Assembly (NCBI RefSeq): GCF_900103035.1
Contig: NZ_FMWO01000057.1
Location: 1-64,000 of the forward strand
DNA from: Nitrosomonas mobilis
GTDB taxonomy: Bacteria; Pseudomonadota; Gammaproteobacteria; Burkholderiales; Nitrosomonadaceae
Length of the DNA: 64,000 nt
Direction of reading: 5' to 3'
In this document: piece after piece, positions 5,886 to 61,740 of the stretch
Position numbering within the stretch: the stretch's first letter is position 1
Layout: each line of letters opens with the position of its first letter
Translations under genes and position numbers: made by a program
The notes under the pieces: generated by a model
Told to the model about the DNA's origin: nothing
What the model saw: the letters and a program-made list of their open reading frames with translations, nothing else
Database searches by the model: none

Positions 5886-5936
5886 CTGCTATTAATCGGC
5901 AACCCACGTCACCGTGATGAGTCAGGCTCGTGTTAG

Positions 5937-7329: not shown

Positions 7330-7850
7330 GGCAGGTAATGAGGAAATCAAGTAGGATGGTACGCAAGTAAGACGCCATTTGCAGCGACAATAATAAACAA
7401 ACAGCGAGAACAAGCCACTTTATATACGCTTGACTCCCGTAGCGGGTTTTACATATGAAGCCCTCAAACAATGAATGGTCGGCTGAATGTCTGTCATCTA
7501 CTGCACGAATCGTATCTGATGGTTTGGGGTGTTTCGGGGCGGTTACACATACAGCCGCGCAGCATGAGCGCCATATTGTGGGAAGTGGCGAACTTGCTGT
7601 GCAGCGTGCCGAGTTTCGCTGGGTCAATACGCTTCTTGGCAATCTCAAGACTGCCTTCAGCGGAACCTACCATGCATTCAATCACGCCAAGTTGTACAGA
7701 GTGCTATCTTGCAGAATTCTCCTATCGCTTCAACCGCCGTTTTGATTTGGCTGCCATGGTGCCGCGATTGCTGCGCGCCGCCGCAACGACAGAAACTCTT
7801 CCACTCGGTATATTGAGAATTTCTGAAACAGGTAGCTAATCAGGAAAGGA
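7330..7850 (+). mobile_element. IS1595-family element, 3' half
   Basis: The plus strand encodes the C-terminal half of an IS1595-type DDE transposase: SDGLGCF, HERHIVGSGELAVQRAEFRW, GTYHAFNHAK and, in other frames, RYLAEFSYRFNRRFDLAAMVPRLL. The end reads ctaatcaggaaa, matching the terminus of the longer copy at 58.8-59.7 kb. The N-terminal zinc ribbon and first catalytic Asp are missing. Frame breaks show it is dead. It truncates the start of the neighbouring pseudouridine synthase. Confidence 0.75.
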
Positions 7851-42538: not shown

Positions 42539-43063
42539 ATGGAATTCCAGGTTCTTTTACTCGAGACTGTCGCGCCAGACACCTGCCTGATGCGCAGCTC
42601 GAATCTGATCTTGGTACGAGATTGTACATTGCAGCATACCAAATGGCGCTGTTCAGGTCTGCGTAGACCTGCAACTACTCGTTCACCGCACGCAGACGAT
42701 CAGAAATCTGGCTGGGCATATCAGGACTCCACGGCGGTCATAAACCCGCCAGACGGCGATATGAAAGCCTGCCTGAACTCGCTGAATGGGCTGCACACAG
42801 AGCACCTTGATTTTACGCCCGGCCACGGTCGCCACTCACACATTGCGATTGATCATCTGGTGACTCACCGCCTCTCATGAGAGCGTAGAATCATCAAAGC
42901 CATGGAAGTCGCTGGCCCTGCCAGCAGCGGTGAAATTACTAAAGCGACTTACGATGGTGCGCCTCCCGCTATACATCCACTAGCACAGAGCCCATTACTT
43001 GCTCACTTGTTCAAGCTGGAGCAAGAACATGTGGTCGCGCAGACTGAAGTTCAATGGCGGTTA
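42539..43063. other. Gap without a recognised gene
   Basis: Several short frames occur. A minus frame (LQVYADLNSAIWYAAMYNLV, 42585-42670) looks mildly coding, and a plus frame ends GRHSHIAIDHLVTHRLS. Neither matches a known family. The promoter of the parA-like operon should be just right of 42538. Confidence 0.35.
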
Positions 43064-43103
43064 CTATAAAAACTAGAGCTGATGGAAACACCATCATCAG
43101 CTC
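43064..43103 (-). terminator. Rho-independent terminator after the yqaE-like gene
   Basis: GAGCTGATG pairs perfectly with CATCAGCTC (43076-43084 with 43095-43103) across a 10-base loop. On the minus strand it is followed by TAGTTTTTATAG. It begins 18 bases after the gene's stop codon. Confidence 0.7.
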
Positions 43104-43120
43104 CGGAATAATGGCAGGAC

Positions 43121-43279
43121 TTACTTTTTTGCGATGATCCAAACGGCATGAACAATACCAGGGATATAACCGAGCAGCGTAAGCACAATATTGATTCAAA
43201 AATGCTTGCCAATACCAGCCTGCAAAAATACGCCCAGCGGTGGCAGCAAAATTGCAATGAGAATGCGCAGTAAATCCAT
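43121..43279 (-). pseudogene. YqaE/Pmp3-family small membrane protein with in-frame TGA
   Basis: A 52-codon gene: MDLLRILIAILLPPLGVFLQ, then AGIGKHF, TGA, INIVLTLLGYIPGIVHAVW and IIAKK. This is the UPF0057/Pmp3 (YqaE) pattern of two membrane helices, and the family usually has Trp at the TGA site (HFWIN). TGG to TGA at codon 28 (43196-43198) is a single change. Everything else is intact: an AAGGGA ribosome site before the ATG at 43279 and a terminator after the stop. Family members occur in stress and salt tolerance. Read-through or a sequencing error are alternatives to a true nonsense mutation. Confidence 0.7.
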
Positions 43280-43325
43280 AAGGTTTACGTCCCTTGTAAA
43301 GTAAAGTGATCATCAGGGTGCAGGA

Positions 43326-43935
43326 GGGGTATAGGCAAAATAAACGCCCTTTTTCATAAGAACCCAATGTACCGAGAAACGGTTTGGTCGTCAACCTGAC
43401 CGGGAAGTCACCCGAAATTCTTAAATTTATTTTTGATTCGCAGCAAAAAGTGTTGAAGAGAACTGATAGGAGCGAGCACGCCATGGAAACGAATAGGTCA
43501 AGCCTTGGCCTGGGAACTAACGTGGCCAGTCGCTGCATGAATTCCAGCGGCGGCATGACGATATGCGTGGTGCCATCCCGATAAGGCGTTTTTGGTGTCA
43601 ACACCACCTGCCCAGCATCATTTAGCGCCAGACGCTCATTGACAACTGGTGGTCGCGTGATGTAACAACACAGGTGTTCCAGTTCCTTGCGCTGATTCAT
43701 GGCGCAACGCATGCAGGCTAAGGCTGTGGGTGTTGGCACAGTGCCCCCTGGCCTGACTGTTCCAGATGTTGTGTGGGCGCAGCTTGTACAACGCAGGCGT
43801 GAGAACCCAAGGGCCGGAATGCCACATTCAAGCAATGCCTCAAATTCATATTTAACAAAATCAGGCGGCCCTGAACCGGCTTCCGTCTCAACCTGTGCAA
43901 AGAAAGTTCCGACGTATTCTTTCACCAAAAAGGTA
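43326..43935 (-). mobile_element. IS91-like element with internal deletions
   Basis: The terminus is at 43330 (one change: taggcaaaataaacgccc). The body jumps from cagcaaaaagtgttg at 43456 directly to aagagaactgataggagcg, losing about 100 bases. Transposase C-terminal pieces (LNDAGQVVLTPKTPYRDGTT, THIVMPPLEFMQRLATLVP) lie at 43500-43640, the central part is gone, and the N-terminus (MVKEYVGTFFAQVETEAGSG) lies at 43780-43928. Confidence 0.78.
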
Positions 43936-56208: not shown

Positions 56209-58524
56209 TCACTTTTTCAGCGCGCGCGTCAGCGCATCGCCAAGCGAACCGGTTTTGCCCGATTCACTGGATTTGTGGGCCAGCTTCTGCTTCTGCGGCG
56301 CGCGGCGTGGAGGGGCCGACGGGCGGTTCCCGCCTTCGACGCACTTGGCTGGCGTGTCGCCGAGTCGCATAGTGAGCGCCACGCGTTTTCGCTGAACGTC
56401 CACCTCCAGCACCTTCACCTTGACCACATCGCCCGCGCTGACGATGGCATGCGGATCCTTGACGAAGCGCTCGGCAAGCGCGGACACATGCACCAGTCCG
56501 TCCTGATGCACGCCCACATCGACGAAGGCGCCGAAGTTGGTGACATTGGTGACCACCCCTTCGAGTAACATGCCGGGCGCCAGATCGCTAAGTTTTTCCA
56601 CGCCCGCACGAAACACCGCCGTCTTGAACTCGGGGCGCGGGTCGCGCGCGGGCTTGTCGAGTTCGCTAAGGATGTCGCGCACCGTCGGCTCGCCGAAGCG
56701 ATCGTCCACATAGCGGCGCGGATCGAGCGCCTTGAGGACGGCGGAGTCGCCCATCAATTCCCGAACCTTGCGCTGAACATCACGCAGAATCTTTTCCACC
56801 ACCGGGTAGGCCTCCGGGTGCACGCTGGAGGCATCGAGCGGATTGTTGCCACCGGCAATGCGCAGGAAGCCAGCCGCCTGCTCGAAGGTTTTTGCGCCGA
56901 GACGCGGCACGGCCTTGAGCGTATTGCGATCCGAAAAGCGGCCGTTGGCATCGCGGTAAGCGACGATGTTCGAGGCCAGCGTGGCATTGAGGCCGGAGAT
57001 ACGCGTAAGCAATGGCGCGGAGGCAGTGTTGACGTCGACACCGACGGCGTTGACGCAGTCTTCCACCACCGTGTTGAGCATGCGTGCCAGGCGCGCCTGA
57101 TTGACGTCATGCTGATACTGACCGACACCGATCGACTTGGGATCGATCTTGACCAGTTCGGCGAGTGGATCCTGCAGCCGGCGCGCAATCGACACCGCGC
57201 CACGCAGACTCACGTCGAGATCGGGAAACTCGTCGGCCGCCAGCTGCGAGGCGGAATACACCGAGGCGCCCGCTTCGGACACCATCAGACGGGTGAGTTT
57301 GAGTTCGGGGTGACGCGTGGCGAGATCATCCGCCAGTTTTTCGGTCTCGCGCGAGGCTGTGCCGTTGCCGATGGCGATCAGATCGGCACCGTGGGCGGCG
57401 GCCAGACGCGCCAACGTGGCAATGGCACCGTCCCAGTCGCGGCGGGGCGCGTGCGGGTAGATGGTGGCCGTGTCGAGCAGCTTTCCAGTGGCATCCACCA
57501 CCGCCACTTTCACGCCAGTGCGCAGTCCGGGGTCAAGGCCGATGGTGACGCGCGGGCCGGCGGGCGCGGCGAGCAGCAGATCCTTGAGGTTGCGCGCGAA
57601 CACGCCGATGGCTTCTTCGTCGGCGCGCTCGCGCGTGGCGTTCATCAGTTCGAGTTCGAGGTGCACAGAGATCTTGACTGTCCACGCCCAGCGCACGGTG
57701 TCGAGCAACCAGCGATCGGCGGGACGGCCGGCGTCGCGGATGCCAAAGCGTGCCGCGATGCGTTGTTCGCAACGGCCGAGCTGCCCGTCGGGCCGGGTTT
57801 CGGGTAACTCGATGCTGAGGCGCAACACGCCCTGATTACGTCCGCGTAGGAGCGCGAGAAAGCGGTGAGAGGGGATGGTTTTGAGCGCCTCGGAGAAGTC
57901 AAACCAGTCGCGGAATTTTTCGCCTTCCGCCGCCTTGTCTTCGACCACGCGAGAGACCACGCGGCCGTCTGCCTGCAGGATGCCGCGCAGCGTCTCAAGC
58001 AGCATGGCGTCTTCGCCGAACTGCTCGACGAGGATCAAGCGCGCGCCATCAAGCGCAGCTTTGACATCGTCGACCCCGCGTTCGGCATCAACGAAGTCGT
58101 GCGCCGCGTGCTCGGGGTTCAGATCCGGATCGTTGAGCAATGCATCGGCGAGCGGCGCCAGACCCGCTTCGCGCGCGATCTGCGCCTTGGTGCGGCGCTT
58201 CTGCTTGTAGGGCAGATAGAGGTCTTCAAGCCGTTGCTTGGTGTCGGCGGCGAGAATCGACGCGCGCAACGCATCGGTCAGTTTTTCCTGGCCGGCGATG
58301 GCGTCGAGCACCGTCTCGCGGCGCGCATCGAGTTCGCGCAGGTAACCGAGTCGGTCTTCGAGTGCGCGTAACTGGGTGTCGTCGAGCGCACCCGTCATCT
58401 CCTTGCGGTAGCGCGCAATGAAGGGCACGGTAGCGCCTTCGTCGAGCAGGCGGACGACCGCGCTGACTTGCTTCTGACTGATTTTCAGTTCGGTGGCGAG
58501 GCGGTTTTCAAGCGATGGCAACAT
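56209..58524 (-). CDS. tex: Transcription accessory protein Tex
   Basis: A 771-residue RNA-binding protein of the Tex/YqgF-S1 type. It starts [20 protein letters not shown] at the ATG 58524. [20 protein letters not shown] (28-47) and [20 protein letters not shown] (near 100-120) are signatures. The YqgF domain holds [19 protein letters not shown], the HhH region [19 protein letters not shown], and the C-terminal S1 domain [20 protein letters not shown] near residue 660. A Pro/Lys-rich tail ends the protein. An in-frame extension to 58722 reads through the IS91-like terminus ([20 protein letters not shown]) and is not native. It opens the tex-yffB-hslO operon. The exact molecular role of Tex is not settled. 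Confidence 0.93.
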
Positions 58525-58654
58525 GGCAGCAGAAGTCAATAAAAACGAGGCCGATTTTGACGAGGCATCTCGGCTGCAAAGTATCTCAGTCACACGCTGG
58601 CAGGACAAGTCGAGGTGCGCTGAGTCGGAATGCGGTGATCGTGCCGACGTGTTA

Positions 58655-58770
58655 GGGTATAGCAAAAATAAACGCCCTTTCTCATAAGAATCAAATGTAC
58701 CGGGAAACGGTTTGATCGTCAATCTGACCGGAAAGTCGCCCGAAATTCTTAACCATTTGTTTTCCTGATT
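58655..58770 (+). repeat. Left arm of a 116-base inverted repeat (IS91-like terminus)
   Basis: From gggtatagcaaaaataaac to gttttcctgatt this arm matches the reverse complement of 59725-59840 with about three differences. It contains the first 95 bases of the dispersed terminus. It shares private changes with the opposite arm (gatcgtcaatctg, gcccgaaatt) not found in other copies, so the two arms were made from one another recently. It overlaps the outer end of the IS1595 element at 58761. Confidence 0.8.
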
Positions 58771-59734
58771 AATTACTTCTCTCAGAAGTTTTGTAGAATC
58801 TACAAATTGCGAAGAAATGTAGCAAGATCAGAGGAGAATGACAATGGCGATGAATAAAATTCAATTTCAGGCAGGCCTGTCACTGCATGAATTTCTACAT
58901 CAGTATGGCACGGAAGCACAATGTGAAGCAGCATTGTTTGCTGCGAGGTGGCCACATGGCTGGGGATGCCTGCGCTGCGATGGGGCGCGATACTCCTGTA
59001 CTCATAACGGCCGCAAGCTATGGGAGTGCCTGGATTGTGGCTACCAGTGTTCTTCAATTGTCGGCACCGTGTTTGAAAATACTAAATTGTCGCTAAAGAC
59101 CTGGTTTCTGGCGATTTACTTGATGACGCAAAGCAAGAATGCGGTCAGTGCGTTGGAACTCAAACGTCAGCTGGGGGTAAGTTACAAAACGGCATGGTCG
59201 ATCAAGCATAAGCTGTTACAGACCATGCTGCTGCGCGAAGAAGAACGCCGTCTGGATGGGCGCGTGGAGGTTGACGATGCTTATCTGGGAAGTGCAAGGC
59301 CGGAAAAGTGCGGCCGAGGCGCGGCAAGTAAGACGCCATTTGAAGCGACAATACAAACAAACAGCGAGGGGAAGCCACTTTATATACGCTGCTTGACTCC
59401 CGTAGCGGGTTTTACATGTGAAGCCCTCAAACAATGGTCGGCTGAATGTCTGTCATCTACTTTGTGGGAAGTGGCAAATCTGCTGTACAGCGTGCCGAGT
59501 TTCGCTGAGTCAACACGCTTCCTGTCAATTTCAAGACTGCCCTGAGCGGAACCTACCATGCATTCAACCACGCTAGGTATGCACAGCGCTATCTTGCAGA
59601 ATTCTCCTATCGCTTCAATCGCCGCTTTGATTTGGCTGCCATGGTGCCGCGATTGCTGCTCGCCACCGCAACGACAGAACCTCTTTCGATCGGTATATTG
59701 AGAAGTTCTGAGACAGGGTAACTAAATCAGGAAA
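58761..59734 (+). mobile_element. IS1595-family element with internal deletion
   Basis: The transposase starts at an ATG about 58844 (MAMNKIQFQAGLSLHEFLHQ). Its zinc ribbon is GCLRCDGARY...WECLDCGYQCS. An HTH region (ALELKRQLGVSYKTAWSIKH) and the first catalytic Asp region (RLDGRVEVDDAYLG) follow. After KQWSAECLSST the centre of the catalytic domain is missing and the frame is wrong; the end reads FNHARYAQRYLAEFSYRFNR and DLAAMVPRLLLATA. The element ends in tttcctgatt inverted repeats. It is likely inactive but could move in trans. No direct target repeat is seen, because the flanks are inverted copies of each other. Confidence 0.8.
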
Positions 59735-59840
59735 ACAAATGGTTAAGAATTTCGGGCGGCTTCCCGGTCAGATTGACGATCAAACCGTTTCCCGGTACAT
59801 TTGGTTCTTATGAGAAAGGGCGTTTATTTTTGCTATACCC
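59725..59840 (-). repeat. Right arm of the 116-base inverted repeat
   Basis: The reverse complement of the left arm at 58655, ending ttttgctataccc. It is the only clear copy of the dispersed terminus in reverse orientation. Beyond 59840 the sequence is unrelated. Confidence 0.8.
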
Positions 59841-59844
59841 CTCA

Positions 59845-60010
59845 AGTATCAGTCCGAGAAGATCTTCCCGGGCTGTCGACTGATTGACATCCACGAATAC
59901 CTGATGAAGAAGAACATCAAATTCGATTGCGTTTCAGGTGTCAGATACATGTACCACGAACCCTGCCGCGCTTCGCTAACAGTGGCGGCATCGAGCAGGT
60001 GCTGCTGTGA
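59845..60010 (+). pseudogene. Cysteine-rich (CCG) domain stub of an Fe-S oxidoreductase
   Basis: The plus strand reads YQSEKIFPGCRLIDIHEYLM, KKNIKFDCVSGVRYMYHEPC, then loses similarity. H.PC after a GCR...H.YL pattern resembles the CCG (heterodisulfide-reductase-like) domain found in glycolate-oxidase-type and large FAD/FeS oxidoreductases. Only about 45 residues survive. The assignment is by motif only. Confidence 0.45.
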
Positions 60011-60091: not shown

Positions 60092-60751
60092 ATGGCTTTG
60101 CATATTGGAGACACCGCCCCGGATTTCACTGCAGAAACCACCGAAGGCACAGTCAAGTTTCATGAGTGGATTGGCGACAGCTGGGCGGTACTGTTTTCGC
60201 ACCCGAAGGATTTCACTCCGGTGTGCACCACCGAACTGGGCTATATGGCCCGTCTGCAGCCCGAATTTGAAAAGCGCAATACCAAGATCATCGGCTTGTC
60301 GGTGGATTCACTCGAAGACCACAAAAAGTGGATTCCCGACATTGAAGAGACACAGAACTGCACCGTCAGCTATCCGCTGATCGCCGACACCGATCTGAAG
60401 GTCGCCAAGCTCTACGACATGCTGCACCCCAACGCCGACGGCGAAACCAAATCCCGCACCGCGGTCGATAACGCCACCGTGCGCTCGGTCTTCATTATCG
60501 GGCCAGACAAGAAGATCAAGCTCATGATCACCTACCCAATGAGTTCGGGGCGTGACTTCAACGAAATTTTGCGGGTGCTCGACTCGTGCCAGCTTACCGC
60601 CGAGCACAAGGTCGCCACGCCGGTAAACTGGAAAGCGGGTGAAGACGTCATCATCGCCCCGTCGATCAAGGACGAAGAGGCACGCGAGAAGTACCCCGAT
60701 GGCTGGAAGACGGTCAAGCCCTACTTGCGCATCGTCCCCTCACCCAAGTAA
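60092..60751 (+). CDS. Peroxiredoxin, 1-Cys Prx6 type
   Basis: A 219-residue thiol peroxidase reducing hydrogen peroxide and organic or lipid hydroperoxides. The peroxidatic Cys45 lies in FSHPKDFTPVCTTELGYMAR. The resolving Cys of 2-Cys types is absent; length and the C-terminal part (VATPVNWKAGEDVIIAPSI, GWKTVKPYLRI) mark the Prx6 class. TYPMSSGRDFNEILRVLDS (about 149-167) is family-typical. A TAAGGAGAG ribosome site lies before the ATG. Monocistronic. It resembles the redox-defence theme shared by tex-hslO but is not linked to that operon. Confidence 0.94.
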   Translation: MALHIGDTAPDFTAETTEGTVKFHEWIGDSWAVLFSHPKDFTPVCTTELGYMARLQPEFEKRNTKIIGLSVDSLEDHKKWIPDIEETQNCTVSYPLIADTDLKVAKLYDMLHPNADGETKSRTAVDNATVRSVFIIGPDKKIKLMITYPMSSGRDFNEILRVLDSCQLTAEHKVATPVNWKAGEDVIIAPSIKDEEAREKYPDGWKTVKPYLRIVPSPK

Positions 60752-60789
60752 GCAGAGGCCGCGGGCGCGGAACCCGATGAACACTCGCC

Positions 60790-61065
60790 CGAAAAAATGG
60801 AAATACTGCGCGTACTCGGCGCCGACGTGCGCCTGGTGCCGCCCAAATCCTACAAGGACGACGAGACAACTATCAGAAGATCGCCGGCTGCTTCGCCGCT
60901 GAACTGCCCGGTGCAATCTGGGCCAACCAGTTCGACAATACCGCCGACTGCGACGCCCATTTCGACACCACCAGCCCCGAAAGCTGGCACCAAACCGCTG
61001 CCTTCACCTGCGCCACTGGTGAAGGCAGCGCAGGTGAAGGCAGCGCGCTCTACAACTCGATTTTA
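60790..61065 (+). pseudogene. Cysteine synthase-like fragment
   Basis: The plus strand reads PEKMEILRVLGADVRLVPPK and SYKDDE, then in the next frame NYQKIAGCFAAELPGAIWAN, QFDNTADCDAHFDTTSPESW and FTCATG. The order matches the middle of cysteine-synthase-A-type PLP enzymes (pattern PIEK..IL.ALGAEV.LVP...Y.D...Y...A..LA.....A.WANQF.N.AN..AH...TG.EIW). One frameshift lies near 60870. The PLP-lysine part and the rest are absent; IS91-like DNA follows. Confidence 0.65.
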
Positions 61066-61094: not shown

Positions 61095-61740
61095 CCTGAG
61101 AGCTGAGGTAGGTCATCCCCTCCTCCTCTATAAGCGCGCCGTGGCGAGTCAATGCTTTCATGATGCGTTAGATGATCCGGCTGAGCAGGCTTTGCTACTG
61201 CTCAGCCGGCGGTGACCGTGCGCTGTGGAATTCCGCCACACCATTCTGGACACGGTATACGCCGTCAAGCACGAGACAATGCAGATGAATATTGAGATTA
61301 GCAGCCGAACCGAAACGGTGAATAAGTGTAATCGCACCGATCTGTGCTTCGGATCGTTTCAATTCAGCCTGCTTGATCAGAAAAGCTGAAAGACCGTCAG
61401 TTTCTCATGGACGCAGCTTGTACTGTACAACGCAGGCGTAAGAGCCCATGGGCTAGAATGCTACATTCATACGCAGCTGCCGTCGGGTAGGGATATTCCC
61501 CGCAGCGGCTGCGCAGGATCGTTCTCCAGCCCTTGTTGTGATGTGCTGCTACTTTAGCTGAGTATTTGCTGCCATGTCAGCGACCTGTCTGTAAGAAAAT
61601 TTACTCGTGCCCAAATCTTGAACGAGCTAGTATAGGGTATAGGATGGCTTCCTTCGCGCAGAGCTCCCTCACCGTAGATATGATTTTCTACTGACACGAA
61701 TTGAGCTGATTTTTGCGGGCTGTTTTGGTAGAGTTGGTTG
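61095..61740 (-). mobile_element. IS91-like element, HUH-region pieces and degenerate terminus
   Basis: At 61100-61390 the sequence is close to that at 54490-54760, including the ggctgagca hairpin and the HUH part on the minus strand. Then comes an N-terminal piece at 61400-61480. A second stretch near 61636 (gggtataggatggcttcctt) begins like the terminus but diverges at once. The 61690-61750 part resembles the transposase/toxin-antitoxin intergenic region and runs into the mscS gene start. Confidence 0.65.

Follow-up and report, generated by a model that had tools for sequence, protein, structure and literature searches.

A decayed IS1595 copy between mirror-image ends of a Y2/IS91-like element in Nitrosomonas mobilis reads as a rearrangement scar

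Introduction

How do two mirror-image copies of one transposon end come to enclose an insertion sequence of another family? The question is raised by positions 58655-59840 of a 64,000-nucleotide stretch of Nitrosomonas mobilis DNA (referred to here as the window), which corresponds to positions 1-64000 of contig C74 in a 3.08-Mb draft genome of 112 contigs with two genes of the ammonia monooxygenase (AMO) family. Is the structure an inverted duplication, or is it a composite with long terminal repeats that could move as one piece? Both were proposed in the initial annotation of the locus. The analysis described below makes inverted duplication a good description, and it remains the favoured class. 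The unit reads as a rearrangement scar made via the terminal repeats of IS1595, not as a composite transposon. That the unit is a scar which arose in one way or another from the IS1595 ends, be it by fold-back copying or by the joining of sister ends, is probable, with fold-back as the first choice and joining as a close rival.

Anatomy of the unit

The structure is nested: a dispersed terminus (T, plus strand) is followed by an IS1595 remnant (plus strand) and by a second, inverted terminus (T', minus strand). The left arm (58655-58763, plus strand, outer edge at 58655) is the outer 109 bp of T, and the right arm (59732-59840, minus strand, outer edge at 59840) is the same segment inverted, with three substitutions in 109 positions (58691/59804, 58732/59763 and 58736/59759) and a longest identical run of 40 bp. 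Together with 7 bp of the IS1595 ends, the arms make up the inverted pair 58655-58770/59725-59840, 116 nt long and 97% complementary, in agreement with the near-perfect 116-base repeats and the roughly three differences first reported. Arms of such length and identity are plainly not due to chance, and the inverted pairs reported in the window (ten in number, with a minimum length of 40 nt) invariably include the right arm. Both arms also stop, as had been claimed, exactly at the T outer edge seen in other copies, where the sequence is most often GGGTATAGG with some variants; past this edge the two sides agree at only 3 of 20 bases.

Are the arms each other's closest relatives? An alignment with 21 other T copies bears out the claim of private variants, since three substitutions are found in both arms only, as is a CC insertion just outside the IS target (a reading of gapped alignment columns). 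The tree built from these 23 copies (the two arms, 16 others from the same genome and five from relatives) leaves aside short or rearranged copies (window 1850, 11988, 22002, 27437, C36 and others) and weaker matches from further relatives. It is partly resolved, with 3 of 20 inner branches starred, and places the arms in one clade (95/89) that is present in 95% of 200 bootstrap trees, the bootstrap being not fully settled. Comparing the arms with all other termini, as the annotation had advised, therefore makes them sisters but does not set them apart: the T copies at 5936 and C15:18472 (98.2%) and those at C15:2427 and C15:20785 (97.2%) are as alike with no IS between them. Because other sister pairs are equally similar, arm similarity alone is insufficient to establish a local duplication.

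The junctions are more telling. Elsewhere in the genome, 12 of 16 distinct IS1595 left ends can be matched to a right end by an exact 8-bp repeat (11 of 15 in another set of flanks; in one case the same 8-mer adjoins two left ends, and either of two right ends could be the partner). These target duplications are AT-rich, and the 12 paired insertions give a target preference of A-N8-T with A or T adjoining. Uninterrupted T copies carry such a site, AA-TTTGTTTT-TG, which ranks in the top 0.6% of window positions as one of about 390 equally good sites. The left junction of the unit falls there, with TTTGTTTT (58756-58763, plus strand), preceded by A, beside the left IS end at the canonical target position within T. 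A normal insertion would repeat TTTGTTTT on the right and continue into inner T. Instead, the outer part of T is mirrored, and the 8 bp beside the right IS end (59732-59739, plus strand) read AAAACAAA, the exact reverse complement of the left octamer and not a direct repeat. The reported lack of a direct target duplication around this IS1595 is thus accurate. Its absence is to be expected in a rearranged copy, and internally deleted IS1595 copies on contigs C27 and C14 are likewise without an 8-bp duplication, so it is the mirror image, and not the missing duplication, that is special here. The left junction looks like a normal IS1595 insertion into T, and the right junction like its mirror copy.

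The IS1595 remnant and its relatives

The central IS1595-family remnant (58764-59731, plus strand; CCTGATT...AATCAGG) is 968 bp long, about 94% identical to the recent copies in the genome, and carries a 73-bp internal deletion. Its left terminal inverted repeat spans 13 bp (58764-58776, plus strand), while the right one (59718-59731, minus strand) reads CCTGATTTAGTTAC with one extra base; both are slightly decayed relative to CCTGATTAGTTAC, the consensus found at both ends of recent copies. The transposase frame (58838-59545, plus strand) is truncated to 235 aa, compared with 316 aa in the open copy L020. Its zinc ribbon scores 37.9 bits, above the cut-off, and its DDE domain 20 bits, below the Pfam cut-off of 27, for which reason the copy is classed as a remnant only. 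Frameshifted and lacking 73 bp, the element is dead. For how long has it been so? It differs from a recent copy at 50 positions, which two Nitrosomonas outgroups assign to the unit lineage (32) or to the recent lineage (7), leaving 11 unpolarised. Changes on the unit lineage (9 synonymous, 20 nonsynonymous) match the neutral expectation of 29% synonymous (P = 0.84); those on the recent lineage (6 synonymous, 1 nonsynonymous) do not (P = 0.003). Since the one lineage is neutral and the other is not, the unit copy seems to have been in decay throughout its private history.

Among the other copies, L020 has both domains above the cut-off (DDE_Tnp_IS1595, 118.6 bits; Zn_ribbon_IS1595, 39 bits) in an open frame, whereas the frame of the recent copy L016 is interrupted. 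The right ends of recent copies are 98-100% identical across 220 bases, and the 13 outer bases of their terminal repeats are identical. The closest IS1595 transposase among named genomes is that of Nitrosomonas sp. Nm51 (82%), which together with the AMO genes points to a Nitrosomonas-like ammonia oxidiser. IS1595 has spread recently over contigs of this genome (L002-L020, L178-L207), many of which end within the IS; 19 right flanks and 16 distinct left ones could be read. Two fragments, at window 7363-7847 and at G000:C34:7022-7494 (L212), are cut at the same internal point (position 685 of the unit query) and are probably one truncated copy duplicated together with its surroundings. The terminal repeats, transposase domains and AT-rich 8-bp duplications of the other copies agree with what is described for the IS1595 family (e.g. 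ISApl4; PMC12561309). The unit copy departs from this in being dead, without a target duplication and placed between 109-bp mirror-image arms of another element.

The dispersed terminus

What is T? In other copies it sits 3' of Y2 transposase sequence or remnants, and by analogy with known elements it is taken to be the end of a Y2/IS91-like element on the ori side. For IS91 and IS801 the origin is described as lying at the right (3') end, which is essential (PMC3189936), and in CR elements terIS forms the 5' and oriIS the 3' boundary (PMC9376610). PF04986 exceeds the cut-off at four places on C74, every one partial; one Y2 frame (43011-43928, 46.4 bits) overlaps the T at 43327, and the arms themselves hold no Y2 sequence. 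The Y2 copies linked to T are decayed, so that only remnants are seen beside it: no full Y2 domain was found next to a T, and the best preserved covers 95-167 of the 183 profile positions. Contig C14 carries a longer Y2 that is open, and no T match was found there. IS91/ISCR-type rolling-circle elements such as IS91 and IS801 (PMC3189936; PMC9376610) are thus resembled in the position of T 3' of Y2 remnants, on the ori side, and in the many end-only fragments adjoining foreign genes. The differences from them are the decay of the T-linked copies and the lack of a Y2 gene in the arm pair. Before the listed T edges, no common tetranucleotide of the kind beside which the ori end of IS91-family elements inserts is obvious by eye.

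T matches on C74 number twelve on the plus strand and one on the minus strand, the latter being the right arm; all five on C15 are on the minus strand. These same-orientation ends are arrayed (twelve over window 1850-58655, five on C15) about 0.9-10 kb apart, with unrelated, partly high-G+C genes or fragments in between, an arrangement that looks like serial one-ended capture of passenger genes.

Distribution and surroundings

Does the unit occur elsewhere? The whole 1.2-kb unit is present once in its own draft genome. A 146-base query across the arm-to-IS junction has matches in 12 of 101 genomes (its own included), all in one genus, but those in other genomes stop by position 109 and are therefore without the IS junction; among the candidates scored, at most eight per genome, the junction is found in none of the 100 relatives. 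In 72,556 plasmid records a single match turned up, limited to 70 bases of the IS. A search for other loci with the complete unit, which had been suggested as a check, has thus returned none from the draft genome, the relatives (with the same maximum of eight scored candidates each) or the plasmid records. Other inverted structures are also scarce. Of ten loci checked out of 51 with IS1595 relatives, eight have no inverted pair of at least 30 nt; L086 has 32-nt arms that reach about 9 bases past the terminal repeats, plus a 55-nt pair at the contig ends, and L128 an overlapping palindrome of 30 nt. No inverted T pair was found in either C15 piece, in C109, in C74:59500-66901 or in one locus of a relative. 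The sole inverted pair in these stretches is at the ends of contig C109 (L216; 1-129 and 17404-17532), which are exact 129-bp inverted copies and could reflect either an overlap in the assembly or a genuine inverted repeat.

To the left of the unit lies a tex gene (56209-58530, minus strand, 64.5% G+C, its start at 58530 placed from the Tex_N domain). The right arm abuts a 127-bp fragment of a conserved gene (59841-59967, plus strand), which has no Pfam match and is 76-81% identical to scattered genomes; its homology reaches the outer edge of the arm, the alignment running from 59841, the first query base, to base 127 in four listed genomes. Further right come an AhpC/TSA-type peroxiredoxin gene (60092-60751, plus strand; at most 71% identity in the genus genomes listed), a segment with one match listed within the order (60773-60987) and a Y2 transposase gene remnant in the usual orientation (61106-61469, minus strand). 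Across the order, matches to the flanks occur in scattered genomes at 64-81%. They reveal no pre-insertion site: in the eight genomes with positions for both tex and the 127-bp fragment, the two are on different contigs in seven and 2.7 Mb apart in G156. Given the patchwork nature of the island, not finding a clean empty site carries no information.

Origin of the mirrored junction

How could the junction have been mirrored? The first choice, a tentative one, is fold-back copying. On this account IS1595 first entered a normal target site 109 bp into T, at the ori side of a Y2/IS91-like element, a step that is strongly supported because the left junction is canonical. The T-IS junction would then have been mirrored onto the other IS end, displacing the second target copy and the rest of the element. 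This outcome is what is observed; the process may have been as follows. A 3' end in the right terminal repeat of IS1595 would pair with the left terminal repeat, and DNA synthesis would copy T outward, running off where the template strand ends at the T outer edge. A nick of Y2 type at the origin would be expected to produce a template end of this kind. The mirrored junction and the missing target duplication would follow automatically from the fold-back of the right onto the left terminal repeat, and the exact stop of the copy from a template ending at the ori edge. The last step is shown by the sequence: the transposase was lost, and the IS went on to drift neutrally.

Several features fit. 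The arms are sisters that end at the T edge, the homology of the right-flank gene fragment reaches exactly that edge, and the right arm is the one reversed T match on the contig. Fold-back copying has been proposed before to occur at short interrupted inverted repeats (PMC4689423; PMC10622511), and here the IS1595 terminal repeats flank the turning point as just such a repeat. If the arms were as old as the IS, 7.9 differences between them would be predicted from the 32 of 885 IS sites changed; three are seen (P = 0.065, falling to 0.017 with 41 changes on the unit lineage and to 0.004 with more). The arms thus appear younger than the IS insertion, although with three events the argument is weak; their youth fits a mirroring after insertion, and could also be explained by gene conversion between the arms under either fold-back or sister joining. 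On the other side, neither an intermediate nor a reciprocal product of fold-back has been seen, and for synthesis to run off at the T edge a Y2 nick is required, yet the full domain was not found beside T. Tandem inversion duplications, as described for the Kugelberg model and ODIRA (PMC4689423), likewise have an inverted copy of a segment joined at a short interrupted inverted repeat. In the unit, however, an IS and its terminal repeats take the place of that interrupted repeat, and where a fold-back duplication has a second junction leading back to the original strand, the copy stops at the T edge and gives way to unrelated DNA. A shallow literature search found no description of fold-back of an IS91-type intermediate. 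A more specific version, which is unlikely, sees in the unit a fossil left by an IS91-like element that carried IS1595 and was caught as a single-strand intermediate of rolling-circle transposition. The IS1595 terminal repeats would fold this strand, self-copying would proceed as far as its 5' end at the ori edge, and T-IS-T', now with two ends, would integrate as a single piece.

The close rival to fold-back, possible but ranked below it, starts from an IS1595 copy in one T, to whose other end a second genuine T, a sister from the same sub-lineage, became attached at an identical target position. The joining could have come about by intramolecular transposition (with inversion or deletion), by recombination between two opposite-orientation IS copies at that site, or by recombination between terminal repeats that faced each other in two sister elements, each with the IS inside it; the reciprocal side would have been lost in later deletions. 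Each T would keep its own neighbour, which explains exact outer edges with different flanks, the edges as well as fold-back does; sister T pairs at 97-98% are known elsewhere; and the gene fragment at 59841, like the Y2 remnant at 61106, is in keeping with a neighbourhood that was rearranged. For a relative in the IS1595 family, insertions at the same place in opposite orientation and inversion between close copies are described (PMC12561309). Yet the joining requires a repeated hit at one site or short-repeat recombination, most versions needing the second hit to choose one among the roughly 390 equally good sites of the window. Fifteen T matches of the same genome run uninterrupted past the target site, and C74 has no reversed T match besides the right arm. 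The reciprocal junction, inner T beside IS1595, is absent from 15 left and 17 right flanks, which were located via near-consensus IS ends, so that decayed copies could be missed. Arms younger than the IS would also speak against joining, except where the IS had come down to both sisters by inheritance or homogenisation had acted on the arms.

Could the unit instead be mobile as a whole, with the T ends as terminal repeats of a T-IS1595-T' composite? The termination of both arms at the T edge would suit this, as would the mobility of IS91-type elements from one intact right end, described for IS801 (PMC3189936). The proposal is nonetheless improbable and has found no support: further copies were sought in the draft genome, in 100 relatives (at most eight scored candidates each) and among plasmids, and the draft holds a single copy, while no junction or whole unit came from the rest beyond the short plasmid match to the IS. 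The outer edges of the unit are without direct repeats. Composite transposons have two transposase-bearing IS ends, and here the arms are 109 bp without a transposase gene, the only IS being the central one, broken and evolving neutrally. Still less probable is an insertion of IS1595 at the centre of a pre-existing T-T' palindrome, or a stem-loop replacement as in IS1272, which is reported to insert by replacing inverted repeats without a target duplication (PMC5678879). That precedent shares with the unit an IS lacking a duplication and tied to inverted repeats in its target, but it concerns another IS with target repeats of 5-17 bp against 109 bp here, and the IS1595 group in this genome does make 8-bp duplications (at the 12 of 16 left ends). 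A central insertion with duplication would leave a direct 8-bp repeat, no IS-free T-T' of at least 40 nt was found in the two C15 pieces or at a relative's T in L060, and the inverted pairs reported in the window all include the right arm. Least probable of all is an assembly artefact in which the right arm is an inverted read-through, even in a draft of 112 contigs with many broken inside IS1595. What makes it unlikely is that the arms carry three differences, have no identical run longer than 40 bp and lead into different flanks, the right one being unrelated DNA whose homology reaches the edge; the IS differs by about 6% from the recent copy and so is not a collapsed repeat.

Implications

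As it stands, the unit is one decayed copy and a tidy example of nested insertions creating long inverted repeats. If fold-back copying is right, two unrelated transposable elements have combined to mirror a transposon end, so that a cargo has an IS91-type end on either side. Since a single end is enough for IS91-type elements to move DNA, a natural two-ended derivative would be informative. If the unit were in truth the fossil of a rolling-circle intermediate, a one-ended rolling-circle element would have acquired two matching ends by a new route, which would also be a possible origin of foldback or MITE-like elements.
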